From the NCBI GenBank assembly GCA_032622095.1, contig CP136066.1:203942978-204006977 (forward strand): DNA of 64,000 nt. Direction: 5' to 3'. The notes under the pieces are model-generated. The model did not search any database, was not told where the DNA came from, and was given only the letters and a program-made list of their open reading frames with translations. Position 1 is the first letter of the stretch, and each line of letters starts with the position of its first letter. This document shows, piece by piece, positions 336 through 37,185 of this stretch. Source of the DNA: Siphonodentalium dalli. Lineage: Eukaryota > Mollusca > Scaphopoda > Gadilida > Siphonodentaliidae. The position numbers and the translations under genes are program-made.

Positions 336-468
336 AAGGTAAATATTGTTAGGCCAATTCTCTATTCTCTTATATATGCAAGGGTCCCTATGAGAGACTC
401 ACATATATAAGAGAATGCATTGGTACAGGGTTTTTGCAAAATTTCCGGAAGCTCCAAGCATTGAAGGG
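336..468 (+). mobile_element. Right part of a family B TTAA MITE
   Basis: It contains one imperfect hairpin built from ctcttatatatgc arms (about 360-423) followed by the conserved tail ggtacagggtttttgcaaaa and the terminal ...ttgaaggg, then TTAA at 469-472. The left half is replaced by, or lies beyond, the 33-bp array at the window edge. Confidence 0.7.
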
Positions 469-1189: not shown

Positions 1190-1761
1190 CTGCAAGATAA
1201 ACAAGAGGTTGCACCGTCGGTGCTGGCATACCCCCCCCCCCCCCCCCCCAGTGTATTCAAACTGACAGTAAGGTGGAGCTATCTGCCCAGATGGAAATAA
1301 AAACCCAACATTTTCATATAAGCAAATATAAATAACCATAGAATGGAAAATATGAACAAAACGATTGAACACTCAATTGATTGTCCTCATAGTAGAGAAC
1401 ATCCATACCAAATTTCATTGATATACGCCAACCAGTGGTGGAAATACGTACAAAAAAACCAACACTTCCAAATAAAAAGATGTACAACTCTAGAACGGAA
1501 AACATAAAAAACGATTGAACAAGCAATTGATTGCTCTCATTGTAGTGAACAATATCTATATCAAATTTCATTGAGATTTGTCAACCGGTGGTGTAGATAT
1601 CTACACGGACAGACAAATAAACCAACATTTCAAGATAAACAAAGATGAATAACTCTAGAACAGAAAATCAGGAAAAAAAATAATTGAACACTCCACTAAA
1701 TACAATCATAGTAGTTAACATCCATACCAAATTTCATTCAGATCCGATAACTGATGTTTAA

Positions 1762-2153
1762 CCCTTTACCCAACAGAAGGGCCCTGTGCCAATGCATTCT
1801 CTTATATATGCGAGTCGACCATAGGTCGCCTCGCATATATAAGAGAATGCATTGGCTTAACACATTAAAAATTATAAAATTGTTAAAGAATGTAAGAAAA
1901 AATGGTAAAAAGTGTTAAAAAAAGATTTTTGTTAGGCCAATGCATTCTCTTATATATGCGAGGCGACCTATGGTCGACTCGCATATATAAGAGAATGCAT
2001 TGGCACAGGGCATAACTGTAACCATCACAATGTGGTCAAGGAGCCGGTTCCAATGATATCCATATTTGTATGGTTCTATTGAGACAGACCGAAGATATTT
2101 TAGGCTGTTGAAGCTTTATTTGGCCGGTTTTGGCCGGTTTGTTGGGTAAAGGG
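1762..2153 (+). mobile_element. Family A TTAA MITE with two mirror hairpins (copy A1)
   Basis: The element has ends CCCTTTACCCAACAG and ...TGTTGGGTAAAGGG and exact TTAA on both sides (1758-1761, 2154-2157). TTAA duplication with CCC ends is the hallmark of piggyBac-like elements. Hairpin 1 spans 1788-1856 (27-bp perfect arms) and hairpin 2 spans 1936-2004; hairpin 2 is the inverse complement of hairpin 1. They are separated by an A-rich linker of about 79 nt. To the right of hairpin 2 is a unique stretch ending in two ggccggttttggccggttt repeats. No transposase is encoded. Confidence 0.88.
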
Positions 2154-2235
2154 TTAAGATGTCCGCTCGGATTGATAAAAAAAAACAACATTTCCAGATA
2201 AACAGATGAATAACTCTAGACCGGAAAATACGATT

Positions 2236-11400: not shown

Positions 11401-14400
11401 ATTGGGAACCTCGATTATGCAATGTGTTGTCTGCTAATTTGGGGATATAGAGAAACTAAACTAAAAAAGAAATAGAATCTTTGTGAAAATAGAAATTATG
11501 ATAAAAAATTTCCAGAGAAGATGAGGCCTCAGCAGAATGAGGTCCCCAGAGGGTGAATTTAATGATGCTAGCCTCAGTAGCCTGCTATGCTGGATAGCAT
11601 CACTAAATTCACCCTCTGGGGGACCTTATTCTGCAAATTACAGGCACACTATGTAAAAGTACTAACAAGTCCTACTAAAAACATATACCCCTCCCAAGAA
11701 TAACAATACTAACACAAAAGTCTATACAGCTGTTGTGTTGGTGTGTATGCCAACTTAGAGCCATCGGCGGTTCTCCTGACATAGGAGGTATTTACAATAT
11801 AAGGTAAGAAGATAAGATAAGACTAAACTCAGACTTGAGCACAAATCACAGTATAATTTTCTAATTTTTTAGCAAGAGGGATCTCTCTGCGCGCAACACT
11901 GTTTGAACGCCCTCCTGCAGGGTAACTATTTCACTGCTGTCGACCTCGCTGAGATCGCCAGACAATTAGATGAGTCTGAACGACAACGTATGGCAGAGGG
12001 AGGAGTTCATTCTGAAGAATATCAAAGATTCTTACAGGTATACAGTAATGCCCTAATTAATCGACTGCTTAACCACAACAGAATTATGGGTAACTTTTCA
12101 GGATTTAGTCGGAAATATGGCTTGTTGCCATTCATCGGAAAGCTCTCGGGGAGCCATATTTCAGACTAAATCCTGAAAAGTTACCCATAATTCTGCTGTG
12201 GTTATGGAGTCGATCAGGTGATTCTCTTATATGAGTGTTTGTTCAGGCCTGATAATATGGTAGAATGAGGTCCCCCAGAGGGTGAATTTAGTGATGCTAC
12301 CCTGCACAGTGGGTTAGAGTCACTCAATTCACCCTCCGGGGACCTCATTCTGCTTAGGCCTCAACGTATGGCAGAGGGAGGAGTTCATTCTGAAGAATAT
12401 CAAAGATTCTTACATGTATAATACATACCTGAAAATATGGTGCTGGATATTCACAGAATGAGGTCCTAATTTAGTGGTGCTACCCCGCACAGTGGAGCTA
12501 CATGTAGCAGCCAAATTCATCATCTGGGGACCTACTAGTAATTCTTTATGGCCTGCTGTGGGAGACCTAGACTCATATTTAAGTTCCCAGATGGTAAATT
12601 CTGATGTGCACCCATTGGGAACCTTGATGATTCAATGTGTCATCTACCAATTTGGGGGTATAGAAAACCCAAATTAAAAAAAAGAAAAAGAAACTTTCTA
12701 AAGAAGTTGTTTATTTGATAATAACTTAATAAGGATACTTTACAGAGAAGATGAAGCCTAGGCAGAATTAGGTCTCCAGAAGGTTAATTTAGTGATGCTA
12801 ACCCACTGTGTGAGGTAGCATCACTAAGTTTACCCTCTGTGCACCTCATTCTGCAAATGTCGGCACCATATTTTCAGGCCTGCATGTTGACCGAAAGTGC
12901 AAGGCTTTTCTGCGGTTCTCAATCAAGACACAGTATTGCCCTAAATAATCGACTCCTTAACCACAGCAGAATTATGGGTAATTTTTCAGGATTTAGTCGG
13001 AAATATGACTTGATGCCATTCATGGTGAATGGCAACAAGCCATATTTCCGACTAAATCCTGAAAAATTACCCATAATTCTGCTGTGGTAAAGGAGTCGAT
13101 TATTTAGGGCATTACTGTATTTATTACCTCGCTCCTGTCTGATGTATGTACATGGGTACTGCGAAAACTTAATATTGATATAATAATTTTTTAAAGGGCC
13201 TATATTGCCATAATATTGGCATATTTCAGCTGCTCTTGTATTCTATCGGTCAAATACTAAGGCTTCAGGCTATTGCCGATGTAATAACATTACTTCTGGT
13301 CAGTATACTCATTATGAAATTCTATATAGGAAGACTATCTAGGGTTCAAGGATGCCAATCATGCCATGTTAAAAAATGTTGTCTTGTTAGTCATATTAGC
13401 TCATCGATCTAAATGGTGACTTTTTTTCTATGGAATCTTCTTATTTTTAAACACAGTCTCAGATATTTTGCAATAATTGGAAAGTTTGTATTATAATGCA
13501 GCACACATATATAAATGGAATTTAAAACATAGCTAACATGCTAACATGTTAAGAATTATCAAAATGTTCTTTTTAAGTTAATTTTACGGGTTTCTCTTTT
13601 CTGTAGCGACCATCAGATAATTTTGACGACAGTGGCTACTTCTCTATACAAGTGATAAGCAATGCTGTGAGTGTTTGGGGTCTGGACCTCGTACCTTACA
13701 GCAGTCCAGGTGCAGCACAGTCAAGGCTCTATCCAACGTATGTTTGATAATTATTTAACCATCTGTACCTGTTTCTCTGTTAATGCAACATATAATATTC
13801 AAGCCTCAAATCTAACATATTAACCCTTTAATGGGGCTTCATGATGGAGGCTGCGTTTGTGCAGCATTAAAGATTCTCTTATATATGCGAGTCTCCCATA
13901 GAGAGCCTCATATATGTAAGGGAATGGCTTACAAGGTCAAGTTAAATATTGTTAGGGTAATGCATTCTCTGATATATGCACGGTTCTCTACGGGAGACTC
14001 GCATATATAAGAGAATGCATTGGCACAGGGTTTTTCGCAAAATTTCAGGAAGGTCCAGTCATGGAAGGGTTAAAGTGAATATTTTTCTCTTGTTTATTGT
14101 AGACACGAAAGGGCTTTCATTTGTAACTTCAAGGATCACTGGTTTGCCACTCGAAAACTTGGGAACCAATGGTTTAATTTGAATTCTCTTTTGACTGGAC
14201 CAGAATTGATATCAGATACATACCTCTCTATGTTTCTCACACAGCTACAGAATGAAGGTAAGTTTCTGTTACGCCTGCCATTTAAAAGCACGGATGGCCT
14301 TCGTTATAGGTTATAATTGAGAAATAACAGTTACCATATTATGAAAATTCACCCAAGAATATACTGTTACTAGTATAGTATAATGCGAAATTATCCACAA

Positions 14401-17400
14401 AACACACTATGTGTGAGTCGAGCATTTGTTAATATACATCACGAAAATAGTGAGCGTTAAGCAATACAGTCAACACTGTGGTGATTATTTTAGGAGAGTG
14501 ATTCATGGTGACCCATTCTACAACGAAATCTTAAGAGGCGAGGATTAGCGAGTGCTATAATGGTATGTTGTAATGAACTTGGTACAGTTTTTACCAAAGT
14601 TCACTTTGTTGATATTTATGATTGGTATAAGAACAAAATCTGTCTGTAACTTAATATTCTTTCTATATATGGTGGTTTTAACCCTTTACCCAACAGAAGG
14701 GCCCTGTGCCAATGCATTCTCTTATATATGCGAGTCGACCATAGGTCGCCTCGCATATATAAGAGAATGCATTGGCTTAACACATTAAAAATTATAAAAT
14801 TGTTAAAGAATGTAAGAAAAAATGGTAAAAAGTGTTAAAAAAAGATTTTTTTTAGGCCAATGCATTCTCTTATATATGCGAGGCGACCTATGGTCGACTC
14901 GCATATATAAGAGAATGCATTGGCACAGGGCATAACTGTAACTATCACAATGTGGTCAAGGAGCCGGTTCCAATGATATCCATATGTGTATGGTTCTATT
15001 GAGACAGACCGAAGATATTTTACGCTGTTGAAGCTTTATTTGGCCGGTTGTGGCCGGTTTGTTGGGTAAAGGGTTAATGGATGTGACTAATTTAACACCA
15101 ATACCCATCGCGAAGGCCAACTGTATCTTTAAGATTAGTGGTATTGGAATTTCAGGTTTGGTATTGATATTGCTATTTTCGCGGCACAACCTGTTTTCAA
15201 TATCCATTTCGATATAAAACAGAGGCAGCCCTGTTTACAAGCCTGGAAATAGTGTGTCTGAGATTTTCAGAATGAGGTCCCCAGAGGGTGAATTTAGTGA
15301 TGCTATCCCTAATGGCAGGCTATCATCACCAAATTCACCCTCTGGTAACCTCATTCTGCTTAGGCCTCAAATGCTAGGGAGGCCTAGGATCAGATTGAAG
15401 TTCCACAGTTGAAGGTGATGATGTTCACCCATTAGTCACCTCGATTATGCATTTTATTTGCTGCAAATTAGCGTATATAGAAACTGAACAAAAGGGAAAA
15501 AACTAAAACTAAAAACAATACTAATTTGAGACTATAGATACTTCCCAGAAGATGATGCCTAAGCAGAATTTGTTGACGCTAGCCCTCTGGGGACCTCATT
15601 TTGAAAATGTCAAACACACCATTTCTAGGCTTTCCTGTTAATTTTTATCGGCTCTCGGCTGAGCCGAGGCAAAATAAATTTCCAATTGAAACAATTTGCT
15701 GAAGAAATTTTCTTAATAGTGTTGCAATTTGGAAGTCTGCATACAGCAAAAAAAATCCTTGTTAAATGCCAAGGACTACTGAGTTAAGGACTATCTTGAT
15801 AATCAGCAATTGTAAGCCGGACCCAACAAATCTTTGTCATGATAATGGACAAAGTTCTAATTGTAAACTAAAGTGTAGAGCATGCAACTATGTGGCTTTT
15901 TAGTTGATCAAATATTTCTGGATAGGCAATTGTTTAGCTTAGGCAAATTTCTGCTAAATAACCCTTTACCCAACAGAACGGCCCTGTGCCAATGCATTAG
16001 GTCGCCTCGCATATATAAGAGAATGCATTGGCTTAACACATTAAAAAACATTTTTTTAGGCCAATGCATTCTCTTATATATGCGAGGCGACCTATGGTCG
16101 ACTCGCATATATAAGAGAATACATTGGCACAGGGCATAACTGTAACCATCACAATGTGGTCAATGAGCCGGGTTCCAATGATATCCATATTTGTATGGTT
16201 TTATTGAGACAGACCCAAGATAATTTAGGCTGTTGCAGCTTTATTTGGCCGGTTTTGGCCGGTTTGTTGGGTAAAGGGTTAACAAAACTGTAGAGGGAAA
16301 GAAGATAGCATTCAAGGGAATATAAATTGCCAAGTTATAACTTTAATTTAATTTCTAATACCTAAGTTCATCGTCGATTGTCATTTAAATCCACACTGAG
16401 GTTTGCACTCCAAATAGAACCCGAAGCCGCCATCGTACGCCGCCGCCGCCAGCCATATTGGCCACAAGCCGCCGCCAGCCATATTATTTCTAACGCCAGC
16501 CACATTTAAAAATCTCCGCCGCCGGAATTGTAAAATGGCTGAGCCATGTGCATGGGCTTATATGTCAAGCCTAACTGTACTGTGAATCGCAAAGAACTAA
16601 ACCGCATTGCCTAATATTGGCATACTCGCATGGTTGTTATATTATCAGAACACCTGGCCCCTTAATGTGGAATAGACTATCCCAATGCATGCTTTCATAT
16701 AACTGAATTCGGTATTGAAAGGGTTAAAATATAAATTCTTTATATCGACAACACCCAGTCTCAGACATCACTGGCATTTGTCAATATATACACATAAGAA
16801 TAGAAAATAGTTTGAAATAGTATATATCATTACTATCCGGTTCGTCATTCAATGGTGCATGCATATATTGCAAGATGGCAGTGATGATAGCAGTCTGAAG
16901 TCGACAGAAGTCCCAATGTAACTACTTATACCGATTAGATGGGAAACTACATAGTATATCCATGACAGTCCTTCGTGAATTTCGCCATAATGGAAAAGCC
17001 CAACATCAAAAGATTACGTGTGGTCTGGAATTCTACGGGTTCACCACAAACGCTAAAAAAAACGGCATCTATAACCGATAACAGGGGATTAGGAACATTT
17101 CGGAAACGGAAATACGCTGAATGATAACATCTCAGCCGGCTGAGCCGCCATATTTCGTCAGCCACGAACGTCGTGACTGAGCCGGCTTAGCTTGCTAACC
17201 AGCCACGAAAATCGGTTGAGCCAGCCATGAAAACTATTTGTCGTGGCTTCGGGGTCCAACTCCAAAATACACCTTATAATATTTGCATTTGTATATTTTT
17301 CCGTGTTTCAAAATAGGTCTATAAATAACTGAACTACCTTTCTATTAGCATTATATTTTCAAGAAAGACGCATTGATTTCATAAAAAATTAAACTTCGAA

Positions 17401-20400
17401 CACAATGTTTGGGTCCCAATCAAATATTTGGACATTTGTATTCATTGCAATTCTGGAATTGGAATATCACGTGACTTCCGGAAAAGGTATACATGTATAG
17501 CCTTAATTTAGCATGAAACAATTTAAAGGGACGGGCGGCGTTGGTTGCATAAATATTCATATTTGTTCAAATCGCCATCAACAGGAGGAATATTAAAATA
17601 TATATAGTTTTGTTCATATGCCAAACATAATCAGCGCGTAAATAATATATTGTTGTCAAGACGTACGATGGTGTACGTAAACAAGAGAATGCTCGTGTTA
17701 CAGAAGTTTTGCTCAATTCTATTGGTTAATCACACACAAATGATATAAACGCTCTTTATTTTTTCCATATCAGGAAAACAGTAACAAATAACGCTCTTTA
17801 TGTTTACCATATCCGGATCTAAACAAAAGCCAGGAAATGTAACGATTTTCTTTTGTTTACATAACAAGGGAAAAACATTTGACAATAACATACTGTTTAT
17901 GCCATATTTCTGATTGGTATAAGAACAAGGTCTGTCTATTATTTCTGTTTATGGCGGTTTTTGACGGAGGTGAATAATTTAACAGCATACCCACCGCCAA
18001 CGCCGCCCGTATCTTAAAAAAACTTCACACACTGCTTTCTCTTTGTTTAATCAAAATTATGTCGTACCATAAACATTTCAGACCGAAGACAGCTGTAGAC
18101 GTTCTTCCCATGGTCTACATGTTCAATTTCTGTGACTGAGAAATTGGTCTCAAGTATATTGAAAAATATAAGAAACAAAACACGTTTTTTCAGTGCTATA
18201 TCAATGAATTTGTTTGGAAATCTTCTGAGTATGTATATTTTGAGATACCTCTTACCAATGGAGTTCGAACAAGCCATCTCCACTTCAATAAAAAACGTTG
18301 AATGCAGATGATTTTCTGGGGGTAAAATAAAAGTGTACCGGTCATATTTAATCGTAGATCATCTTTGCAAATATGGTACCACTCACAATGTGCTTGATGG
18401 ATCAATCGAAAATGCAGAATACTGATGATTCACTGGTAGTAGTATGATATGGAATGATTCCTTATAATATTTTGCACAAACTCAGCACAACAGATTCGTC
18501 AATAACACCCCTTTACCTGTTGCATTGTACATTCCAGGGTATTCAATATTTGTGGTATCGGGCAATTTACCAGAATGTGAAGCAGATGAATTATTGAAAC
18601 TCATACCTGCTGTCCAGCCAATCAAGCCATCCCTTATAACAGATTCTCACAAAAGCAACCAATCAGATCCAGAGATAGAACATGCTTTGGAAGCTAGCCG
18701 ACATGCAGTGGATGCAGATGATGAGAGCTTACAAAGAGCTTTACAGATGAGCATGGAAGGTCACTATAATCATATTAACCCTTTACCCAACAGAACGGCC
18801 CTGTGCCAATGCATTCTCTTATATATGCGAGCCGACCATAGGTCGCCTCGCATATATAAGAGAATGCATTGGCTTAACACATTAAAAATTATAAAATTGT
18901 TAAAGAATGTAAGAAAAAATGGTAAAAAGTGTTTTTTTAGGCCAATGCATTCTCTTATATATGCGAGGCGACCTATGGTCGACTCGCATATATAAGAGAA
19001 TGCATTGGCACAGGGCATAACTGTAACCATCACAATGTGGTCAATGAGCCGGTTCCAATGATATCCATATGTGTATGGTTCTATTGAGACAGACCGAAGA
19101 TATTTTAGGCTGTTGAAGCTTTATTTGGCCGGTTTTGGCCGGTTTGTTGGGTAAAGGGTTAAAGATATATAATCTGAATTAACACTCCTAAATTACTATT
19201 TCTTTGGCTTCGGGGGTAACAAATATTTGATTCGAGGAACCCACCCATCAAAGCTCAGAGTTCTCCGTCAGATATTGATTTTTGAAATCTGTTATTTTTC
19301 ACCACCTGGAATATTTGGCAGCCTAGCATATAGTCGATGAGCTGACTGACATACACTCTTGATACCAAATTGCGTTGAACAAAAGTTGATATATAACATG
19401 TTTTGGAAAATTTTGTACTGGATTTGACAGCATTATTTTGTTGGTAATTAATCGATTCTGATAACTAAAACATCTTTTAAAGAACTGTTGTATTTGTTGG
19501 ATTCTGATGATATGGGCACAATCGAATCAGATTGTGTACCTTTAATGGCAGATGGACATTTGCAGAATGAGATCCACAGAGGGTGAATTTAGTGACGCTA
19601 CCCTGCACAGTGGGCTAGCATCACCAAATTTGTCATCATTACGTGCGCTCGCGCAACAGTATGGCGATCAGACAGATTCGTAGGTTGGTGTCACACTCCA
19701 TGACGTCACCAAAAACGACGTAAAACCTCGTGGCGTTCTGACATTTGTACTGTGCCGCGTTTTTGCTATCTTTATTTTATGTGTTGTTTTCGATTATTTG
19801 TTTGTCGCCGATATCGCCATTTGTCAGGATTCCCTGTTTCTATATTTAAAACTGGCATGCTCGTAGTGAGCCTCGATTTCGATTTTTTCTCCCATGTCAA
19901 CATACGTCAGAGTTATGACAAAAATAGATCGACCTACATTTTCTCCATCAGAACTCTACATCAAAGAGTCTATAGACTCCTTCGGGACCTACATAGACTC
20001 CTTCATTTGGGTATTTTTACTTATAATTGGGAAGTTTTATCATTTTTGGTTCGTGCGAAGACCTCTTTTTATCGTGCGGGAAAAGAGAGACATTCAAAAC
20101 GCGATTTCGTAATTCGACGCAATAGGCTGAACAGCCTAACCTTCAGCCGAGTTCCGGGTCAAATACGACGAATGACGTAACACAAAACAAAACGCATTTG
20201 TTGACACAAACACCGTTTGAAGAGTTTATTATTACATAAATTGATCGTTATTGATTAATTATTGATATTTATTGTTGCAATATTGGCTGCTATCAATATT
20301 TACACAAATAGTATTAATTATTTCTTATAATTGCTCCTTTGGTCAACTTTGACTATCGGAAAATGAAAATCAAAATATGCCGCTGATAAAAATGTAATCG

Positions 20401-23400
20401 ATATTAAAGTCTCATCCTTTCGCCAACATGGAATTGGTTTTAATTACTTAAATGATTAATATAGTAATTTGCCTTTTATCTGTGATGAAATGAGAAATGG
20501 TAATTGTCTTTTTTTGCTAACATTAAATTAAATTAAATTAAGTAAAATACAGTGAAATTATTTTTTTAATTATTGTTTATTACATTTTTGCGCACGTTGG
20601 CATCTCTCTGAGTGCATTCTAGTTTTGCATGGCCATTATTAAATAATTCAGCACACTAGGCAGCCAACATGTTAATCCAATTGATCCCAATCTTCATATG
20701 GCTCTTTGAGTTGACATCTCGTTTTGCTTAAACATTTAAACATTCTGCATCCCTTATTTCTACATTGACTGTCATATATGACATTATCCCCTCTCCAAGT
20801 TGAGCTACAGTGTCATTAACGCTTTCATCTTAGGATACTTTGCCGACCCATCACAGCCGAGTGTCTTGGGCTCTTCTACCTCCAAATTGTATGAATCCCC
20901 CACATCAGATGAACTACGACAGAGGCGATTAGCATATTTAAACAGAGATCCTTCTCAGCAGTCACAGAATGCTACCACTTCTTCCAATGCAGCTGGTGAG
21001 TATCAAGTCCAATGGACCAGGGTTCGCGCTGCCATTTGCCAAATTTGCCAATGGCAAAAATAATTCACATTTGGCAAAATATATTTTTCATTTGGCAAAA
21101 ATGTTGGCAAGTCACTTTTTAATTCCTCAAGAAAGTTGATAAAATATTGGTCAATAAATACCTTTCACTTCTGTAAACTCTTACAATATAATTATATTAG
21201 TGGTGTTTTATAAGGTTTAGGACAAGTTAACACCTCTATATCAAGAATCAGCTAATCTTATAGCAATGTGTGAAGGGATTAATAGTATTTATTGCCATGG
21301 TGTTTACATATTTAGCTAATCCTCTTGTGATGCGCCCTTCTGATGAATCAACCCTTCTAAAATTTAATTGTTCAGTTCTTGATTTATTGTTGTATGATAA
21401 ACCACAACAGAGCGGTTAGATTAATTAATAACTTAATAACTGCTTTTCTATCGATATCAAAAGTCGTTAAAACAGCGATTGTTGAATTGATACTAGCATT
21501 TGGCAATTTCAAGAATAATTCGGCAAAAAATATTTTCATTTTGCAAAACATTTCTTGCAAAAGTAAATTTCATTCCAGTGTGGACCCTGCAATGGACATT
21601 GTGTTGGGTATTAAATCTAATAGAACATGCAAATAATTTATAAATGTTTCTAATGAAATTTTCATAAATATTATGCGTTAGTTGCAATGCATGTAAGAAA
21701 ATTAAAAATATATTTACTGAAATAAATACACATAAAACATTTTATATTCTCAATATGTTGGTGCACAACTACACGATGAACCCTCACAAATACATGTAAA
21801 TGTAAACAGCTTATGTGTTTATTGCTTGCTTGTTTCTATTTTCAGTCGTTGTTTACAAGTTATATAGTGAGGTTTTTTTTCAATCAAATTTGATAATTTA
21901 ATTGAATTTATTTCATTATTTATTCCTGTGGGATCAAAATGTTGGAAACGAACAATTGTAATCAGATGTAATCGAAAAGTAATTGATTACATTTAATAAA
22001 GTAATTGTAATTGTAATCAATTACATCAACAAAAATGTAATCCGTAATTGTAATCATAAATCATGTAAATCAAAAGTAATTGTAATCACAATCGTTTACA
22101 TTGGCATGTAATCATCCCAACCCTGAAGTTTCTGTTGCACGGAAAAGCAATGGTACATTGCTTAACCCTTTACCCAACAGAAGGGCCCTGTGCCAATGCA
22201 TTCTCTTATATATGCGAGTCGACCATAGGTCGCCTTGCATATATAAGAGAATGCATTGGCTTAACACATTAAAAAATATAAAATTGTTAAAGAATGTAAG
22301 AACAAATGGTAAAAAGTGTTAAAAAAAGATTTTTTTTAGGCCAATGCATTCTCTTATATATGCGAGGCGACCTATGGTCGACTCGCATATATAAGAGAAT
22401 GCATTGGCACAGGGCATAACTGTAACTATCACAATGTGGTCAAGGAGCCGGTTCCAATGATATCCATATGTGTATGGTTCTATTGAAACAGACCGAAGAT
22501 ATTTTAGGCTGTTGAAGCTTTATTTGGCCGGTTTTGGCCGGTTTGTTGGGTAAAGGCTTAAACACTTCATCGCCGGGTACAGAACTGACGACGTTACCAG
22601 TGAAATGTTATATATGTTACTACTGACTTTAGTATACACTGATACTCAAAATTTCAAAATTAACCCTTTTGATACCTCACGGTCTACACATAAGTTCTGA
22701 TTTTCAAAATTGGTAAAAACCCAACTATGTACCACGTTCCCTTCTTTATAGTAAACTACCAGTATACGAGAATCATGATACTGATGCTTATTTAAACTTA
22801 TATGATGCACATACATTTAACTATGATGGTGCATGATTCTACGATACTGGTACCCATCCGCTTGTCATATGGTATGCTCTTATTTCCAAAATTTTAAAAC
22901 ACCAAGCATACATCTGTTATGCTCCTATTAGTTTATTTGACTTCTAAATTGTCCTTGTGGCGCTTCGGAATGTATACCTAGATTTATTACACACCTTTGT
23001 CCATGTTACCGAAGACAAGTTTACCCCTGTATTCTACGGTGTTCCCAGCCCCCCTGGATCTCTGTATCTTACAACACCAATCATGTTTACTTCTGGTCAG
23101 TCCAGGGACCAGCCTAGGGTCAAAATATAGGGAGAAGTGACTTCTCCCTCTTGGAAAAATAAGGAGAAGTGAGGGCTTACCAGGGAGAAGTGGAGAGTTA
23201 GTGCGACTATTTGTCGCTAGTAACTATTCATTAGAACTGATTGTTTTAGCTGTTATTATTGTCCACAATAGATTTTCTACATGTGTGAGGATAAACTGGA
23301 AGTGTTAAGCTGAGCAGTAGATCATCCAGTCACCAATTCTTCAGGGAGACTAAAAATTTAACTTTTTTTTTTAGGGAGACATCCACTTCTCCCTGACGTC

Positions 23401-24729
23401 ATTTCAGGGAGACTTGCGGCCACACAGGGCGACTATTTCGCCCACGTCGCCCCCTAGGCTGGTCCCTGGGTCAGTCTCTTTGAAAAGCCGACGAAAATCC
23501 TATCGGATGTACGTCTCTAGATTTGTTATTTAACCATTTCATTGGAGAGTGGCACAGAGTATGCACGATTTCATTGGTTAATGGCATAACAGATCACTTC
23601 ACAGATCAGAGGTCAATGACATGTTGACAATTTTCCCAAGCATTGTCAGACACAACTAATGTTGGAAAACTGAATACAGGCGATGTAACCGTAATTAATT
23701 TTTCTCATCGCAAGACATCTTTTACTTTTTATCAGTCAACGATATTCATGACTGATTATTCTTTCACATCTTGTTGTATTTATAACTATCTCTAAACAAT
23801 ACGGTTCTCACAAACATTTACTACGCCAGGAATGCACTCCATATTTGGAAACGGTTTATTATGTCATGTAGAAATGAAATATAATTGACGCAGATTAATC
23901 AGATGTTGGCTTCGGTAAAATAATCCTCATTCTCGCATTAATTGTTTTGAGAAGAGAGTGACTTTCACCAAATTCACCTAGCTTATGTAGGCTTATGTAA
24001 TAAAATCCCATTGTTAACATTTTTGATAGTCGGCAACAAAAGCATGGACATGCGATGTGCTAATTACTCATACAGTGTAGATGTGCAATTTCCAAATGCT
24101 CGCTGAGGTGGCTTGCACTTCTATTATTTGGATTTGGTTGTTATTATGGGTTATTGGGGATTTGCAGGTGACAATTAGTACCAGCGGACCCACAAATTTA
24201 CGAAACCATGAAAAGTGATACCAACAAATTTAAAGCCATTCACAGTGAACCAAGAAAATTGATGCCAATTAAATTAGAGCCTTTTGCGGTATTTTGTTGA
24301 ATTCTGATACAAGCCACATATTATCCAGTAGCAAACCTTGAAATAGGGTGTCTGTCATTTGCAGAATGAGGTCCCCAGAGGGTGAATTTAGTGATGCTAC
24401 CCCGCATAGCGGGCTAGCATCACCAAATTCACCCTCTGCGAACCTCATTCTGCTGAGGTGTAAGCAGAATGAGGTCCCCAGAGGGTGAATTTGGTGATGC
24501 TAGCCCGCTATGCGGGGTAGCATCACTAAATTCACCCTCTGGGGACCTCATTCTGCAAATGACAGACACCCTATTTCAAGGCTTGTCCAGTAGGTATTTT
24601 TACCTGCTCACTATTACCCATTGTTTCCTTGTGTGACCATTCTTTTCATGCCAATTGTTCTGTATTTCAGACATCAGTGATGAGGAAATGCTTGCCAAAG
24701 CTATAGCTATGTCAATGGAGCCTACTTGA
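8429..24729 (+). CDS. ATXN3: Ataxin-3 deubiquitinase, complete gene, seven coding exons
   Basis: Ataxin-3 is a Josephin-family cysteine protease that trims ubiquitin chains and works with VCP/p97 in protein quality control. Coding exons: 8429-8452, 11873-12037, 13607-13737, 14103-14257, 18538-18759, 20834-20995, 24671-24729. All junctions are GT-AG with matching phases, and the total is exactly 918 nt (305 aa plus stop). The Josephin domain (about 1-180) starts MEAIFHEKQEGSLCAQHC; the catalytic triad falls at C14, H119 (KDHW) and N134 (FNLNS), the human positions. Tandem UIMs lie at about 202-216 (PEIEHALEASRH) and 219-233 (ESLQRALQMSMEG), a third at 289-303 (EEMLAKAIAMSME). ELRQRR at 259-264 matches the arginine-rich VCP-binding site. 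Where human ataxin-3 has polyglutamine this protein has only PSQQSQNATTSS. The protein is shorter than human (about 360 aa), mainly between the UIMs. Five of the six introns carry transposons. No AATAAA is evident in the 300 nt after the stop. Confidence 0.97.
8968..10151 (+). mobile_element. Nested hAT element (inner)
   Basis: The ends TAGAGCTGGGACGGTTATGG and CATAACCGTCCCAGCTCTA are flanked by a perfect 8-bp duplication gtaagttg (8960-8967, 10152-10159). It is inserted 81 bp inside the left end of the outer hAT element, so it is younger. Subterminal ttaaccggttaacc palindromes lie near both ends (about 9029 and 10115). Its 1184 bp show no transposase frame, so it is non-autonomous. A further inverted pair, gggtaagcccagtatgcag (9065) against ctgcatgggcttac (9242), may be yet another insertion. 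Confidence 0.92.
10200..10310 (+). pseudogene. BED zinc-finger remnant of a hAT transposase
   Basis: A short frame starts MAEHDEQTSHVWKYFSKKDK and continues KSKCAACNICRKEFAW before a TGA at 10308-10310. SxVWKYF followed by KCxxC is the start of BED-type zinc fingers found at the N-terminus of many hAT transposases. The expected histidine pair is present only in another frame downstream (RRHVSKNN near 10360), so the frame is broken. It lies inside the outer hAT element, just after the inner one. Confidence 0.75.
11182..11531 (+). repeat. Internal region shared by longer family D derivatives
   Basis: Phrases such as cacccattgggaacctcgat and tttggggatatag recur at about 12585-12665 and, more diverged, at 15360-15490. 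They lie next to family D palindromes each time, so a longer family D element with an internal body is likely. Confidence 0.5.
11532..11634 (+). mobile_element. Family D palindromic core
   Basis: Arms gcagaatgaggtccccagag and the inverse ending ctgggggaccttattctgc, with tgatgcta/tagcatca in the interior. Located 240 bp upstream of ATXN3 exon 2. Confidence 0.75.
11873..12037 (+). CDS. ATXN3: ATXN3 exon 2
   Basis: Encodes residues 9-63, QEGSLCAQHCLNALLQG through EEYQRFLQ, with the oxyanion glutamine Q9 and nucleophile C14. The acceptor is aattttttag and the donor CAG|gtatac. A family C element begins at 12043, only five bases into the intron. Exactly 55 codons. Confidence 0.97.
12043..12220 (+). 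mobile_element. Family C foldback MITE touching the exon 2 donor (copy C1)
   Basis: The left end cagtaatgccctaattaatc follows TA at 12041-12042. Arms with ttatgggtaacttttcagga and ttagtcggaaatatgg are mirrored to about 12205; the right end is degraded, and the expected cattactg is lost. Family C elsewhere shows TA duplications, as in Tc1/mariner-like MITEs. Confidence 0.85.
12262..12353 (+). mobile_element. Family D palindromic core
   Basis: Arms tagaatgaggtcccccagag and ccggggacctcattctgc, with tgatgctaccc in the centre. It lies between the true end of exon 2 and its decoy copy. Confidence 0.7.
12362..12420 (+). pseudogene. ATXN3: Decoy partial copy of ATXN3 exon 2
   Basis: These 59 bases repeat 11984-12042 (the last 54 bases of exon 2, its gt donor and three more intron bases) with one difference: G at 12037, the last exon base, is T at 12415. 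The copy therefore reads CAT|gtata where the functional junction reads CAG|gtata. It lacks its own acceptor and the upstream two thirds of the exon. Confidence 0.9.
12454..12854 (+). mobile_element. Diverged family D derivative with internal body
   Basis: Degraded palindrome halves occur at about 12454-12535 and a better palindrome at 12772-12854 (gcagaattaggtctccagaa, ...gcacctcattctgc). Between them is the body phrase cacccattgggaaccttgat also found near 11398. The outer end ttttcaggcctgcatg follows at about 12880. Confidence 0.6.
12931..13118 (+). mobile_element. Family C foldback MITE (copy C2)
   Basis: The ends cagtattgccctaaataatc and ...atttagggcattactg are full-length inverted arms with a very short loop near 13020-13030. 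The right side continues with TA. It lies in ATXN3 intron 2. Confidence 0.85.
13607..13737 (+). CDS. ATXN3: ATXN3 exon 3
   Basis: Encodes residues 64-107, including DDSGYFSIQVISNAVSVWGL, the centre of the Josephin fold. Acceptor ttctgtag, donor AAC|gtatgt. It appears to combine what are two exons in the human gene. Confidence 0.95.
13824..14069 (+). mobile_element. Family B TTAA MITE (copy B1)
   Basis: The ends CCCTTTAATGGGGCTTCATG and ...CATGGAAGGG are flanked by TTAA at 13820-13823 and 14070-14073. It contains two imperfect hairpins built on ctcttatatatgcgag and its complement, separated by ggcttacaaggtcaag. It ends 29 bp before the exon 4 acceptor junction. Confidence 0.85.
14103..14257 (+). 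CDS. ATXN3: ATXN3 exon 4
   Basis: Encodes residues 107-159, with catalytic H119 (FKDHWFATRKL) and N134 (QWFNLNSLLTGPEL). Acceptor tttattgtag, donor GAAG|gtaagt. Confidence 0.97.
14286..15128 (+). mobile_element. Family E element split by a family A insertion
   Basis: The left end aagcacggatggccttcg follows TTAA (14282-14285), and the right end cgaaggccaactgtatct precedes TTAA (15129-15132). It is interrupted by the TTAA element at 14692-15073, so family A moved after this copy. The arms are more diverged than in the 3225-3605 copy. Confidence 0.7.
14692..15073 (+). mobile_element. Family A TTAA MITE (copy A2)
   Basis: Complete copy with both mirror hairpins, ends CCCTTTACCCAACAG and GTTGGGTAAAGGG, and TTAA at 14688-14691 and 15074-15077. 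Very similar to copies A1 and A5. Confidence 0.88.
15238..15634 (+). mobile_element. Longer family D element with internal body
   Basis: It starts caagcctggaaatagtgtgt and has a palindromic core at about 15270-15359, a body related to 11390-11460, a degraded second core at about 15563-15605, and an inverse end accatttctaggcttt. Confidence 0.6.
15640..15955. other. No gene recognised
   Basis: Intronic AT-rich sequence; the only notable motif is tcggctctcggctgagccga near 15648. Confidence 0.4.
15962..16278 (+). mobile_element. Family A TTAA MITE with internal deletion (copy A3)
   Basis: It has family A ends, but hairpin 1 has lost its left arm (tgcattaggtcgcc) and the linker is short. The left target site reads ATAA rather than TTAA; the right site TTAA is at 16279-16282. 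It is an older or damaged copy of 317 bp. Confidence 0.82.
16283..17522. other. Intron sequence with a GCC-rich island, no gene recognised
   Basis: Repeated gccgcc(a)gcc phrases occur at about 16428-16520, and gagccggc/gagccagcc phrases at about 17134-17230. Sequences ccaaatagaacccgaagcc (16407) and ggcttcggggtccaac (17246) are roughly inverse, so a degraded transposon spanning about 16400-17270 is possible. Confidence 0.4.
17527..18013 (+). mobile_element. Family E element, TTAA-flanked
   Basis: The left end agggacgggcggcgttgg follows TTAA (17523-17526); the right end ccaacgccgcccgtatct precedes TTAA (18014-18017). It shares the aacaaaagccaggaaatgt and gattggtataagaacaa segments of the other E copies. 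Confidence 0.72.
18018..18537. other. ATXN3 intron 4, 3' part
   Basis: No repeat or second gene recognised up to the exon 5 acceptor. Confidence 0.4.
18538..18759 (+). CDS. ATXN3: ATXN3 exon 5 (UIM1 and UIM2)
   Basis: Encodes residues 159-233: end of the Josephin domain (GYSIFVVSGNLPECEADELL), a linker, then tandem UIMs EIEHALEASRH and LQRALQMSMEG. Acceptor cattccag. The donor GAAG|gtcact is a weak match to consensus but is required to reach the next exon in frame (74 codons, phase kept). Confidence 0.94.
18779..19158 (+). mobile_element. Family A TTAA MITE next to exon 5 (copy A4)
   Basis: Complete copy with both mirror hairpins and TTAA at 18775-18778 and 19159-19162. It starts 20 bases after the exon 5 junction. 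Confidence 0.88.
19163..19555. other. No gene recognised
   Basis: ATXN3 intron 5 sequence without recognisable features. Confidence 0.4.
19562..19632 (+). mobile_element. Truncated family D palindrome
   Basis: Left arm gcagaatgagatccacagag and centre are present; the right arm stops after gctagcatcaccaaattt. Confidence 0.65.
19645..20833. other. ATXN3 intron 5, no gene recognised
   Basis: An open frame at 19752-20180 shows no recognisable domain, and its composition does not suggest coding. An inverse pair could exist around 19645-20190 (gtcacc...acgacgt), but I could not define ends. Confidence 0.35.
20834..20995 (+). CDS. ATXN3: ATXN3 exon 6 (linker that carries polyQ in vertebrates)
   Basis: Encodes residues 233-286 including SPTSDELRQRRLAYLNRDPS and QQSQNATTSSNAA. 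DELRQRRLAY aligns with the segment just before the human glutamine tract. Only QQSQ stands in its place and there is no CAG run. Acceptor catcttag, donor GCTG|gtgagt. Confidence 0.94.
21018..21589 (+). mobile_element. Non-autonomous hAT element in ATXN3 intron 6
   Basis: The ends CAGGGTTCGCGCTGCCATT and ...AGTGTGGACCCTG are flanked by a perfect 8-bp duplication caatggac (21010-21017, 21590-21597). Subterminal tttggcaaaa repeats occur near both ends. It has 572 bp and no transposase. Its left target duplication begins 14 bases inside the intron. Confidence 0.88.
21950..22125 (+). mobile_element. Solo right end of another hAT family
   Basis: It ends atcatcccaaccctg and contains many taattgtaatc/gattaca subterminal repeats. 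A matching left end cagggttggg was not found, so the copy is truncated. Confidence 0.5.
22166..22557 (+). mobile_element. Family A TTAA MITE (copy A5)
   Basis: Complete copy with both mirror hairpins; the right terminus carries one change (GTAAAGGC). TTAA lies at 22162-22165 and 22558-22561. Confidence 0.87.
22562..23094. other. ATXN3 intron 6, no gene recognised
   Basis: AT-rich sequence without features I can name. Confidence 0.4.
23103..23468 (+). mobile_element. Non-autonomous hAT element
   Basis: The ends CAGGGACCAGCCTAGGG and CCCTAGGCTGGTCCCTG are perfect 17-bp inverted repeats, flanked by the 8-bp duplication ggtcagtc (23095-23102, 23469-23476). Internal tagggagaagtg and inverse cacttctccctg repeats lie near the ends. 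It is 366 bp. Confidence 0.9.
23477..24323. other. ATXN3 intron 6, no gene recognised
   Basis: No repeat boundary or exon recognised. Confidence 0.4.
24332..24585 (+). mobile_element. Complete family D element with 8-bp target duplication
   Basis: The ends CAAACCTTGAAATAGGGTGT and ACACCCTATTTCAAGGCTTG are flanked by tccagtag (24324-24331, 24586-24593). Two palindromic cores in tandem (about 24360-24455 and 24465-24555) lie in the middle. Duplication length and CA...TG termini suggest a hAT-mobilised foldback element. It ends 77 bp before the last ATXN3 exon. Confidence 0.85.
24671..24729 (+). CDS. ATXN3: ATXN3 exon 7 (UIM3 and stop)
   Basis: Encodes residues 287-305, DISDEEMLAKAIAMSMEPT, then TGA. 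This is the C-terminal UIM of the three-UIM isoform type. Acceptor tgtatttcag. Confidence 0.95.
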
Positions 24730-27234: not shown

Positions 27235-27655
27235 CAAGCCTTGAAATAGTGTGCCTGTCATTTGCAGAATGAGGTCCCCAGAGGGTGAATTTAGTGATGC
27301 TACCCCACATAGCGGGCTAGCATCACCAAATTCACCCTCTGGGGAGCTCATTCTGCTGAGGTGTAAGCAGAATGAGGTTCCCAGAGGGTGAATTTGGTGA
27401 TGCTAGCCCGCTATGCGGAGTAGCATCACTAAATTCACCCTCTGGGACTCAGAATGAGGTCCCCAGAGGGTGAATTGCTGACGCTATCCCGGATGTAGGC
27501 TAGCATCATTAAATTCACCCTCTGGGGACCTCATTCTGCTTAGGCCTGAATCAGGAAAAAATTAGAATGAGGTTCCTAGAGGGAGAATTTGGTGATGCTA
27601 GCCCACCATGCGGGATAGCATCACTAATTGCATCCTCTGGGAACCATAGGTCGTT
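27235..27655 (+). mobile_element. Cluster of four family D palindromes
   Basis: It starts caagccttgaaatagtgtgc. Cores follow at about 27264-27357, 27368-27450, 27451-27541 and 27567-27650, the last degraded. No outer right end is preserved. Confidence 0.75.
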
Positions 27656-29116: not shown

Positions 29117-29336
29117 CAAGCCTTGAAATAGGGTGTCTGTCATTTGCAGAATGAGGTCCCCAGAGGGTGAATTTAGTGATGCTACCCCGCATAGCAGGCT
29201 AGCATCACCAAATTCACCCTCTGGGAACCTCATTCTGCTGAGGTGTAAGCAGAATGAGGTCCCCAGAGGGTGAATTTGGTGATGCTAACCCACTATGCGG
29301 GGTAGCATCACTAAATTCACCCTATTTCAAGGCTTG
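29117..29336 (+). mobile_element. Complete family D element
   Basis: The ends CAAGCCTTGAAATAGG and CCTATTTCAAGGCTTG are flanked by cttgacgt (29109-29116) and cttgacct (29337-29344), an 8-bp duplication with one mismatch. It has two tandem cores; the second has lost its terminal arm. Confidence 0.82.
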
Positions 29337-29799
29337 CTTGACCTTCCTCTTAAAGGCCCACTTAATTTTTGAATTCCCAGATCGCATTATGTACAACATA
29401 TTCCATATTATATACAATTTGGAAGAGGAACTAAAAATATATATATATACCACTGGAATACAAAACAGCTGTGACCTAGGAGTGTCCGCCAAGTGACAGA
29501 GATTATCAGATTCACACCAAGACTTCCCCTGTTATTTACCACCAGAATGCATCATAATTCATAACTACGAGATAGTTATTCACCTTCCCCATTGAGAATC
29601 ATAAACTGGCATTACAGACCAGATCAAAATTAAGCACAGAACACACGTTGGTACCTTGACAAAATCAACATGTAAACAGTTTATTCGACCGGATAAGTTG
29701 ATAATACAATGTTTTTGGAGCTTCTTCTTTTAAATGATATATAATATGGAATATGTATGTAATGTGATCTGGGGATTCGAAAATTAAGTGGTCCTTTAA

Positions 29800-30241
29800 C
29801 CCTTTACCCAACAGAACGGCCCTGTGCCAATGCATTCTCTTATATATGCGAGTCGACCATAGGTCGCCTCGCATATATAAGAGAATGCATTGGCTTAACA
29901 CATATTAAAAATGATAAAATTGTCAAAGAATGTAGAAAAATATTATAAAAATTGTTAAAAAATGTAAGAAAAAATTATAAAATTGTTAAAGAATGTAAGA
30001 AAAATGGTAAAAAGTGTTTTTTAGGCCAATCATTCTCTTATATATGCGAGGCGACCTATGGTCGACTCGCATATATAAGAGAATGCATTGGCACAGGGCA
30101 TAACTGTAACCATCACAATGTGGTCAATGAACCGGTTCCAATGATATCCATATTTGTATGGTGTTATTGAGACAGACCGAAGATATTTTAGGCTGTTGAA
30201 GCTTTATTTGGGCGTTTTTGGCCGTTTTGTTGGGTAAAGGG
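29800..30241 (+). mobile_element. Family A TTAA MITE, expanded linker (copy A6)
   Basis: TTAA at 29796-29799 and 30242-30245. The A-rich linker between the hairpins is duplicated (ttgttaaagaatgtaagaaa phrases recur), giving 442 bp. The right part has changes such as ggcgtttttggccgttttg. Confidence 0.86.
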
Positions 30242-30584
30242 TTAAACTCAACACTGATAATGTCCATACTGTGTATGGACTAGATCATGTCACAAATCTC
30301 TAGATCTACTCGTGACTGAGAAGTTTACAACATTGAAAAAACAGTGTAGGTAATATATTTTTTAGTTAATACCTGTTCCTTAATAATATATTTCACTCGA
30401 AATTACAATATTTAGGTGACTTTTGTGAACCAATTTCCCAATAAGCATTTAACTGATTACCCAGGGGAGATGACAATATTGTGAGTGACTCAAAGTAAAA
30501 TCAGCTCATAAAAGTTTATTTCATTCCAAGTACACAAGCATCTTGGAAAGAGTTATGACCTAATGTTAAACGGTTATTTCTATA

Positions 30585-30995
30585 CAGTGATGCTCTAAGT
30601 AATCGACTTCTTAACCACAGGAGAATTATGGGTAACTTTTCAGGATTTAGTCGGAAATATGGCTTGTTGCCATTCATCTCTCCCCGAGAGCTTTCCGATG
30701 AATGGCAACAAGCCATATTTCCGACTAAATCCTGAAAAGTTACCCATAATTCTCCTGTGGAGTGCCAGGTCGATTTTGTATCAACCCATATACCCTGTGC
30801 CAATGCATTCTCTTATATATGCGAGTCGACCATAGGTCGCCTCTCATATATAAGAGAATGCATTGGCCTAACATTTTTTTTTTTTTACAATTTTTTTACA
30901 ATTTTAATAATTTATTCTTATATTGTTTAACAGACTTATTTTGTAGGTTTAGGGCACTCAAAGGGTTAAGAAGTCGATTACTTAGAGCATTACTG
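30585..30995 (+). mobile_element. Family C foldback with a later insertion (copy C4)
   Basis: The ends cagtgatgctctaagtaatc and ...cttagagcattactg are flanked by TA (30583-30584, 30996-30997). Its right arm is interrupted at about 30763-30964 by another hairpin element that ends ...cactcaaaggg before TTAA. Confidence 0.85.
30763..30964 (+). mobile_element. A/B-type hairpin element inserted in copy C4
   Basis: It contains one complete 69-nt class hairpin (gccaatgcattctcttatat ... at about 30799-30867), then a poly-T tract and ...caaaggg followed by TTAA (30965-30968). The left boundary is degraded. Ends agtgcc and ggcact are inverse. Confidence 0.65.
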
Positions 30996-31326
30996 TACAT
31001 AGTCAGTGTTATTGGCTATTGTTGGCATGAAATAGAACAAAAAAAGTGTCCATCAAGTGATACAGATTCTCAGATATTTCACTGTAGGTGAAGGTCTCAG
31101 CTCGAAATTACAACATTTATGTGACTTTTGTGAGCCAATTTCCCCAATACTCATTTAACTGATTACCCAGGGGGGGATTCCAATATTGTGAGTGACTCAA
31201 AGCAAAATCAGCTCATAAAGTTTATTTCATTCCAACACCCAATCATCTTGGAGAGAGTTATGACCTAATGTTAAACGATTATTTCTATACATAGTCAGTG
31301 TTATTGACCATTATTGGCATGAAATA

Positions 31327-31539
31327 CAGTAATGCTCTAATTAATCGACCTCTTAACCACAGCAGAATTATGGGTAACTTTTCAGGATTTAGTCGGAAAT
31401 ATGGCTTGTTGCCATTCATCGGAAAGCTCTCGGCGAGAGCTTTCCAATGAATGGCAACAAGCCATATTTCCGACTACATCCTGAAAAGTTACCCATAATT
31501 CTGCTGTGGTTAAGAGGTCGATTAATTAGAGCATTACTG
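31327..31539 (+). mobile_element. Complete family C foldback (copy C5)
   Basis: The ends CAGTAATGCTCTAATTAATC and its complement are flanked by TA (31325-31326, 31540-31541). The arms are about 100 bp and almost perfect, with ctctcggcgagag at the turn. Confidence 0.9.
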
Positions 31540-31544
31540 TAGAA

Positions 31545-32191: not shown

Positions 32192-32406
32192 AGAGTAATG
32201 CACTAAATAATCAACTCCTTAACCACAGCAGAATTATGGGTAATTTTTTAGGATTTAGTTGAAAATATGGTTTGTTGCCATTCATCGGAAATCTCTCAAT
32301 GAGAGCTTTCCGATGAATGGCAGCAAGCCATATTTCCGACTAAATCCTGAAAAATTACCCATTATTCTGCTGTGGTTAAATAGTCGATTATTTAGGGCAT
32401 TACTCT
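32192..32406 (+). mobile_element. Family C foldback (copy C6)
   Basis: Arms gagtaatgcactaaataatc and its inverse (...atttagggcattactc) with atctctcaatgagagctt at the turn. The ends carry changes relative to cagtaatgc. Confidence 0.8.
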
Positions 32407-33147: not shown

Positions 33148-33151
33148 TTAA

Positions 33152-33598
33152 CCCTTTCATGACGGGAGCTTCCTGAATTTTTGCGACCATAGGTTGCCTC
33201 GCATATATAAAAGAATGCATGGCTTAAAAGATTTTATATTATTTTATAATTGTTAAAGAATGTAAAAAAAATGATAAAATATTGTTAAAGAATGTAGGAA
33301 ATAATGATAAAAATTGTTAAAGAATGTAAGAAAAAATGACAAAAAAATGATAAATTATTTTAAAGAATGTAAGAAAAAATAAAAAAAATAAGAAGGTAAG
33401 AAAAAATTATAAATAAAGTGATAAAAATTGTAAAAGAATGTAAGAAAAATTGATAATAAAAAAAAAAGATAAAAAATTGTTAGGCCAATGCGTTCTCTTA
33501 TATATGCAAGGTGACCTATGGTCGACTCGCAAACATAAAAGAATGCATGGGCACAGGTTCTTTAATGTGGCGCCAGCGCAGTTCCCGTCATGAAAGGG
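33152..33598 (+). mobile_element. Complete family B TTAA MITE (copy B2)
   Basis: The ends CCCTTTCATGACGGGAGCTT and ...CCCGTCATGAAAGGG are flanked by TTAA (33148-33151, 33599-33602). Half-hairpins gaccataggttgcctcgcat and aggtgacctatggtcgactc flank a long A-rich linker of repeated aaagaatgtaagaaaaa. Confidence 0.87.
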
Positions 33599-33602
33599 TT
33601 AA

Positions 33603-35954: not shown

Positions 35955-36102
35955 TATGAGAATGCACTGGCTTAAAAGGTCAAGGTGAATATTGTTAGGC
36001 CAATGAATTATCTTATATATGCAAGGTTCCCGTACATATATAAGAGAATGCATTGGCACAGGGTTTTTTGCAAACTTTCAGGAAGCTCCAGACATGGAAG
36101 GG
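35955..36102 (+). mobile_element. Truncated family B element (right part)
   Basis: It begins tatgagaatgcactggctta, has the middle phrase aaggtcaaggtgaatattgt and ends cagacatggaaggg before TTAA (36103-36106). It marks the left edge of the 10-kb duplicated block; the counterpart in copy 2 is 46579-46692, with an internal deletion. Confidence 0.7.
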
Positions 36103-36111
36103 TTAAGTTAA

Positions 36112-36502
36112 CCCTTACCCAACAAACCGGCCAAAACCGGCCAAATAAAGCTTCAACAGCCTAAATTATCTTGGGTCTGTCTCAATAAAACCATACAAAT
36201 ATGGATATCATTGGAACCGGCTCGTTGACCACATTGTGATGGTTACAGTTATGCCCTGTGCCAATGCATTCTCTTATATATGCGAGTCGACCATAGGTCG
36301 CCTCGCATATATAAGAGAATGCATTGGCCTAAAAAAAATCTTTTTTTAACACTTTTTAACATTTTTTCTTACATTCTTTAACAATTTTATAATTTTTAAT
36401 GTGTTAAGCCAATGCATTCTCTTATATATGCGAGGCGACCTATGGTCGACTCGCATATATAAGAGAATGCATTGGCACAGGGCCGTTCTGTTGGGTAAAG
36501 GG
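36112..36502 (-). mobile_element. Family A TTAA MITE, reverse orientation (copy A7), absent from the paralogous block
   Basis: It begins CCCTTACCCAACAAACCGG, the inverse of the usual right end, and ends CTGTTGGGTAAAGGG. TTAA lies on both sides (36108-36111, 36503-36506). In copy 2 the corresponding sequence at 46691-46710 has one TTAA (46698-46701) and no element, an exact empty site. Confidence 0.95.
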
Positions 36503-37185
36503 TTAAATGATTGGTATGGTTATTTAAAACCTGTCATACACTTTGTCTGTTTTATCCTACTATTTTAACTTTTAAATTTGAGTATGAACTACCTGCATTA
36601 CTTAGTTCCTAATAACATGCTCTTTTCAGATTTATATTTATTTATTTCTGAATGTTAGTGTAATACAATGTTTTGTCTTCCAACACATATAAGCACATAA
36701 TGTCAACATCTGAATCTCATATCAGGTTTGCTCATGATTGGTTATTCAAAAAGCAGATTTACTACTTCAAATTAATTGAATTAAGAATGTGCTTGTATGT
36801 CAATGTAAATACTTTCTAAGTTGGGGGTATAGTTCTAACTACTTATGTTGAAGTGAATTTGACAAGTACTGACTGTTGTAGTCTTCAGAGTCCCAGTCGT
36901 CTCAGTCTTTACAGTCAGGTGAGCGACTCCACAGTCATTGATTGTCTTGTCTCCTTCAAATTGATCTTCTGACATTTTTTGAAAATTCATGAATGGGGCA
37001 CCTTCTTATGGGCAAGCTTATAATATGCCACAAGAACAGATGCAAAATGAAAATTGAAGCCATCCAATGAATGTGTTATGCCTCTCTTGTCAAGCAAGTT
37101 TACCTTTGAACAATAGATTGTTACCGATTGTCCAGTAAAAATTCAGCAGTAAATTCAGAGATTGGATATGTATAGTGTTGCAGGG

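Follow-up and report, generated by a model that had tools for sequence, protein, structure and literature searches.

Several described systems bear on the old question of how miniature inverted-repeat transposable elements (MITEs) come to number in the tens of thousands, and of whether their non-coding bodies act. MITEs of the piggyBac type are flanked by TTAA, short and very numerous, and the Kolobok T2-MITEs of Xenopus likewise target TTAA and include, in Xmix, an amplified internal segment, according to the portion of the source considered (PMC6004289). The non-autonomous, modular pearl-family elements of bivalves contain internal repeats related to satellite monomers, and the same account, in the part drawn on here, gives a conserved palindrome near a repeat junction for DTC84 (PMC5139131). 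Among short interspersed elements (SINEs), highly conserved domains place one internal domain in elements moving by different means, and the V domain is also present in the MITE MER6, as far as the consulted sections go (PMC6887750). Here, we examine a 64,000-nt window (the whole stretch of DNA analysed; contig C6, CP136066.1, positions 203,942,978 to 204,006,977) of the scaphopod Siphonodentalium dalli, in which a TTAA-flanked MITE, family A, carries two mutually inverse 69-nt hairpins. Tens of thousands of gene-less elements, belonging to at least four families whose ends differ, bear this hairpin too, and it is this sharing, beyond anything claimed in a preliminary description of the window, that is the unexpected part.

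Compared with these systems, family A resembles the piggyBac-type MITEs in its size, abundance and TTAA flanks, and in CCCTTT tips like the one end seen at each of four transposase loci of the same genome (L026, L027, L030, and L040); it differs in that its double inverse hairpin cassette is common to other families, and in that a transposase partner of its own was not found at the loci examined below. The T2-MITEs have AGGRR tips in the cited portion of their description (PMC6004289), unlike the CCCTTT tips seen here. In the pearl family, compared by description only and from part of the source, the repeats are satellite monomers, whereas here a near-perfect 69-nt hairpin recurs across different ends and targets (PMC5139131). 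The conserved domains, in the part of that literature considered, belong to SINEs, as opposed to a palindrome in DNA transposons (PMC6887750). A precedent for an active body is provided by mPing-type MITEs, where internal non-terminal sequence alters transposition; the effect was assayed there and is inferred here, and the sections of that report considered mention no hairpin cassette (PMC9921582). In the literature, with Dfam and Repbase outside the scope, we recognised no description of such a cassette or layout, and the arm sequence gave no matches in papers.

The preliminary description had reported two 69-nt hairpins with 27-bp perfect arms, exact inverse complements of each other, and this is borne out at 1788-1856 and 1936-2004 (Table 1). 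Each hairpin is composed of 27 perfect pairs, one mismatch, five further pairs, and a 3-nt loop, with the mismatch being T.C in hairpin 1 and G.A in hairpin 2; the predicted RNA folds have a minimum free energy of about -55.5 kcal/mol (z about -13 to -15). The cassette reads CCCTGT, 69-nt hairpin, AT-rich repeats, inverse hairpin, and ACAGGG, and an 82-nt inverted repeat (1781-1862/1930-2011, 99% identity) encloses both hairpins. Outside the hairpins the flanks are unequal, 26 nt on the left and 149 nt on the right, so that the earlier phrase "a palindrome made of palindromes" holds for the core and not for the whole element. The ends form a 26-nt inverted repeat (TTAA counted in) at 88% identity. 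With its 400 bp, terminal inverted repeats, and high copy number, family A has the characteristics of a MITE, or non-autonomous DNA transposon, and its length is insufficient to encode a transposase.

All seven family A copies reported for the window were recovered, the second starting at 14682 rather than 14692. TTAA stands at both sides of six; in the seventh (15962-16278), most of the linker and a portion of hairpin 1 are missing. In each of the remaining six, the four arms combined show no more than one difference from the majority sequence of the family, in agreement with the earlier remark that six of seven keep nearly perfect arms. Further hairpin copies in the window sit in elements outside family A.

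Genome-wide (2.227 Gb, nine contigs), the exact 27-nt arm occurs 270,242 times (135,135 and 135,107 by strand), and a reversed-pattern control with 0 matches excludes a chance origin. The exact hairpin core, internal mismatch included, is found 121,232 times (60,735 + 60,497). Exact ends number 91,621 for family A (45,789 + 45,832), 17,723 for family D (8,840 + 8,883), 14,969 for family C (7,409 + 7,560), and 12,965 for family B (6,421 + 6,544), with some of the family B matches listed lying within 33-bp tandem arrays. Copies are spread over all nine contigs, for which reason assembly duplication was set aside as a full explanation; two duplicate rows were removed from one of the samples described below. 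The exact arm had no matches in viral contigs. Family A ends are sparse mid-contig, 16 of 100 among the matches listed falling in the central 40% (p=3e-7), in contrast to 23 of 40 piggyBac transposase loci (the best 40 of 128 matches). In one family A element (L084; G000:C1:6269590-6272080), about 2 kb of other DNA lies between the two hairpins.

The sharing of the hairpin among families emerged from 40 arm-anchored loci in the first 3 Mb of contig C1, some of them mutual duplicates (L005/L006, L015/L045/L046). Together with the window they yielded 66 hairpins at a strict threshold, assigned by flank words to family A (30), C (15), D (9), and B (7), with one mixed and four without a family; a loose word had initially placed 11 of the 30 A hairpins under A/B, and their context decided for A. 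The commonest 65-nt core is identical in 26/30 A, 7/15 C, and 5/9 D hairpins. With one example per family, the hairpin matches at 69/69 positions between A and C and at 68/69 between A and D, and the conserved boundary CCCTGTGCC is common to A, C, D, and those B copies that retain that part. Outside the hairpin, the longer A-D match comprises 36 identical, 3 substituted, and 6 gapped bases, and the C-D match 46 identical, 10 substituted, and 8 gapped bases; linkers differ between families, and ends compared one example each (BLAST, plus strand, E up to 0.01) gave no match. The ends of A, B, and C have only TTAACCCTTT in common, beyond which they diverge, and these three families insert at TTAA. 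Family D begins with TGTGACCCGCC and inserts at TA-like sites (TA at both sides in 7/10, TTAA in 0/10). The four thus have neither the homologous ends nor the common target site of a single family. The cassette is carried whole or as a half; when C elements were picked by their ends, 18 of 20 had both arms at ≤4 edits, one of these (L115) being centre-deleted.

Two loci from this survey merit separate mention. At L203/L204 (G000:C1:12491683-12492168), a D element has inserted at TATATA, within an arm of a B-type hairpin. At L012 (G000:C1:542000-544900), family B ends stand in 33-bp tandem arrays and hairpins in 97-nt tandem units, apparently a transposon end and body turning into satellite DNA.

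How the arms change relative to the remainder of the element was assessed in an arm-independent sample, drawn by the family A end preceded by an arbitrary 5-mer (104 matches, 100 listed, 60 fetched). All four arms are exact in 28 of the 60 copies, three in 18, two in 9, one in 3, and none in 2. Fifty-five, those with both ends and a recognisable tail, were retained for alignment. Private changes are equally frequent in the arms (33/5672) and in linker plus tail (74/10996; p=0.54), and an earlier sample (31 of 33 elements after removal of two duplicates, with 13 single-ended copies excluded) gave 18/3260 against 48/6240 (p=0.24); the two samples pooled give 37/8932 against 88/17236 (p=0.30). 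Family A arms therefore mutate after insertion about as fast as the rest of the element. Shared changes behave differently. They occupy 8/5672 cells in the arms versus 179/10996 in linker plus tail, with none in the loops, and the positions concerned are 4/108 versus 34/210 (position-level p=8e-4); the corresponding cells in the earlier sample are 6/3260 versus 112/6240.

Private divergence of the sampled copies is about 0.6%. They are young, and the very recent spread proposed in the preliminary description is supported. Its premise that decay should have eroded the arms was mistaken for copies of this age, since private mutations in family A fall alike on the arms and on the remainder, as far as the power of the samples allows. 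Arms diverging as fast as the linker had been named in advance as evidence against function, and this is the case for private changes and not for lineage-level ones. Because private decay is equal in family A, it appears that nothing protects copies after insertion, and purifying selection on copies at the level of the host was set aside on the same ground. Because shared variants are rare in the arms, constraint seems to act on propagating lineages rather than on single copies, and the scarcity of such variants suggests that the elements that propagate are those with intact hairpins.

Family A is most likely moved by a piggyBac-type transposase, judging from sequence features that agree with that superfamily, namely, a TTAA target duplication and a tip resembling those of piggyBac elements in the same genome. 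A profile search with PF13843 (piggyBac transposase) gave 128 matches, and 24 loci were examined. Four of these have the TTAACCCTTT end on one side, reading TTAACCCTTTATCTGC at L026, L027, and L030 and TTAACCCTTTCGACGG at L040; the other end was not found in the fetched DNA at any of the four. These one-sided tips support a probable piggyBac-type origin of families A, B, and C. The RR/AGGRR tip of Kolobok elements is absent from family A. At L026, L027, and L030, palindromes of the form GCGAC-N4-GTCG occur at distances of about 20 and 65 nt to the tip, and L028, whose tip lies outside the DNA seen, has them too.

Taken together, we favour, tentatively and with a chance we would put slightly short of even, an interpretation in which family A, non-autonomous and targeting TTAA, is young and very abundant, and in which its cassette, common to at least four families, is retained since elements that lose the hairpin propagate less well. 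The palindrome would be a portable cis-acting cassette that aids the propagation of its carriers, whichever transposase moves them. It may act as DNA in the donor element, bound or extruded, and thereby assist replication, end pairing, or chromatin access, and it could have passed between families through recombination, template switching during repair, or nested insertion. Because the cassette is kept despite differing ends and target sites, its action should be independent of any one transposase, which suggests that the benefit, if any, does not come from a single enzyme. The hairpin-dependent transposition step envisaged earlier, taken as a step in propagation, fits the depletion of shared variants in the arms. 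A broader claim, that any non-autonomous DNA transposon acquiring the cassette thereby gains the capacity to propagate, regardless of transposase and target, as a counterpart of the SINE conserved domains, strikes us as unlikely; it would apply to more than 120,000 copies of the exact core in one genome. An internal palindrome that is near-constant across lineages with different ends while copies decay freely separates selection during propagation from constraint at the host level, and it yields a defined 69-nt sequence for functional scrambling.

Several points weigh against this interpretation. The samples demand one or two exact ends and are thus biased to young copies, cells with shared variants are not mutually independent, and pooling the two family A samples weakens the contrast in shared positions (14/108 versus 49/210, p=0.037). 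In family C (19 of 20 elements aligned), the comparison without the AT linker points in the same direction and is not significant (shared positions 0/54 versus 4/66, p=0.13; private changes 6/964 in the arms versus 15/1254, p=0.19). With the AT linker, shared positions are depleted in the arms (0/54 versus 17/133, p=0.0036), and private changes are too (6/964 versus 51/2486, p=0.0025), which counters equal decay; we think this private difference is due to misaligned T runs. None of the 24 transposase loci showed an autonomous partner bearing A, B, or C ends within about 1.3-1.5 kb of flank per side, and Kolobok is set apart here by its tip sequence, the transposase search having covered PF13843.

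Correction between arms belongs to the same side of the balance. A wider search of the fetched DNA returned 292 hairpins, of which 14 distinct ones, mostly B-type, are old (≥7 differences, ≤6 gaps); they show two-sided Watson-Crick changes at five pair positions, so that pairing persists with altered letters, and retain the T.C mismatch in 13 of 14, which speaks for the favoured interpretation, with eight of the 14 coming from the single tandem array at L012 and hence being non-independent. Genome-wide, variants at the mismatch number 755 with the T changed and 2,161 with the C changed, the pair-restoring forms being palindromic and so counted on both strands. Among the first 100 matches listed for each and scored by eye, T>C accounts for 30 sites, the pairing T>G for 28, and T>A for 15, and C>T for 39, the pairing C>A for 26, and C>G for 9; private changes across family A include 18 T>G, 25 T>A, 27 C>A, and 15 C>G. 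Pair-restoring changes are thus somewhat favoured, and some of the two-sided changes could be arm-to-arm copying. Strong correction was rejected, given that most cores, 121,232 in all, preserve the mismatch, and arm-to-arm correction is at most weak. Gene conversion, an explanation offered in the preliminary description, accordingly seems to play a small part: family A arms show no deficit of private mutations, and the mismatch survives, even if pairing changes are somewhat preferred.

The strongest alternative, which we judge on the unlikely side, is neutral hitchhiking with concerted evolution, whereby a satellite-like module is swapped among MITE families and owes its uniformity to recent exchange or gene conversion rather than to any use. 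Palindromes are recombinogenic, the 97-nt tandem units at L012 and the D element within a B-type hairpin at L203 show the module in fitting settings, and the lower private count in family C arms, with the AT linker counted, is what such exchange would produce. Satellite monomers that recur in mobile elements have also been described in bivalves, in the portion of the source considered (PMC5139131). Conversion from a larger pool should, however, lower private mutations in the arms, and in family A these are not lowered; the boundary and internal mismatch are, in addition, the same in three families. A plain burst of young MITEs, in which the hairpin is inherited ballast maintained by nothing, would account for the youth of the copies and for equal private decay in family A, yet it is already disfavoured by the strong under-representation of shared variants in arms and loops and by the presence of the same hairpin in four families, and we deem it very improbable.

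Two further readings give the hairpin a more specific function. That it is transcribed, as a structured RNA or as small RNAs that shield the element from silencing or act in trans, seems to us improbable. MITE-derived microRNAs exist, the predicted fold is strong, and many C and D copies have a T-rich run after the hairpin. One-sided changes in the old hairpins comprise 33 G.T against 14 A.C cells, although by type the preference is unclear (10 against 8), and 73 distinct young hairpins give 19 against 29 cells and 10 against 19 types, so that selection on an RNA strand is not firmly indicated. One array supplied eight of the old rows, and Rfam at gathering scores has no match in the window. 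About as improbable, and if anything slightly more so, is a transposase-binding palindrome, in which a piggyBac-type transposase would bind the hairpin centre through its C-terminal domains, comparable to the near-tip palindromes of piggyBac and piggyBat. The centre reads GCGAC-N5-GTCG, and the GCGAC-N4-GTCG palindromes near the tips at L026, L027, and L030 recall it, as well as the palindromes that piggyBac transposases bind in the part of the literature considered (PMC11707139); this is a lead only. The resemblance is short and was spotted after the fact, in the fetched DNA such palindromes are missing from 20 of the 24 transposase loci, the GCGAC centre is absent from most B-type hairpins, and family D carries the same hairpin despite a different end and TA-like targets.

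Table 1. Coordinates of family A, its parts, and related hairpin-bearing elements in the window
Feature	Position	Strand	Remarks
Family A element (first copy)	1758..2157	+	TTAA both sides; element proper 1762-2153
Hairpin 1	1788..1856	+	69 nt, 27-bp arms, T.C mismatch, 5 bp, ATA loop
A-rich linker separating hairpins	1857..1935	+	
Hairpin 2	1936..2004	+	Matches hairpin 1 exactly when reverse-complemented
Long right flank (tail) and right terminal inverted repeat	2005..2153	+	
Family A copy	14678..15077	+	All four arms exact
Family A copy	15958..16282	+	Deletion in hairpin 1 and linker; ATAA in place of left TTAA
Family A copy	18775..19162	+	
Family A copy	22162..22561	+	Base just before right TTAA changed; TTAA intact
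Family A copy	29796..30245	+	Longer linker, tandem repeats of 31-nt period
Family A copy	36108..36506	-	
Family B element	13820..14073	.	Older diverged hairpins; end differs after TTAACCCTTT
Family B element	33148..33602	.	TTAACCCTTTCATGACGGGAG... ends, related hairpins, long AT-rich repeat array
Family C copy	30760..30969	.	One hairpin, 30799-30867; left end truncated beside another palindromic element
Older B-type hairpin	353..423	-	
Older B-type hairpin	35999..36057	+	Internal deletion

The window also contains palindromic elements of other kinds. A second, unrelated element with ends CAAGCCTTGAAATAGGGTGTCTG (24332-24585, 27264-27446, and 29146-29323) has two mutually inverse hairpins as well, which suggests that the double inverse hairpin layout originated on more than one occasion; an apparent 8-bp duplication, TCCAGTAG, in one of the copies is hAT-like. 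The TTAACCACAG elements each consist of one long palindrome whose arms measure 64-108 nt (12930-13118, 31325-31541, 32192-32406, and 30615-30760). Among the open reading frames, one at 18525-18995 reads into the family A copy at 18775 and presumably resembles an ataxin-3 exon, and another at 612-1229 on the minus strand resembles what we assume to be a glucuronosyltransferase exon.
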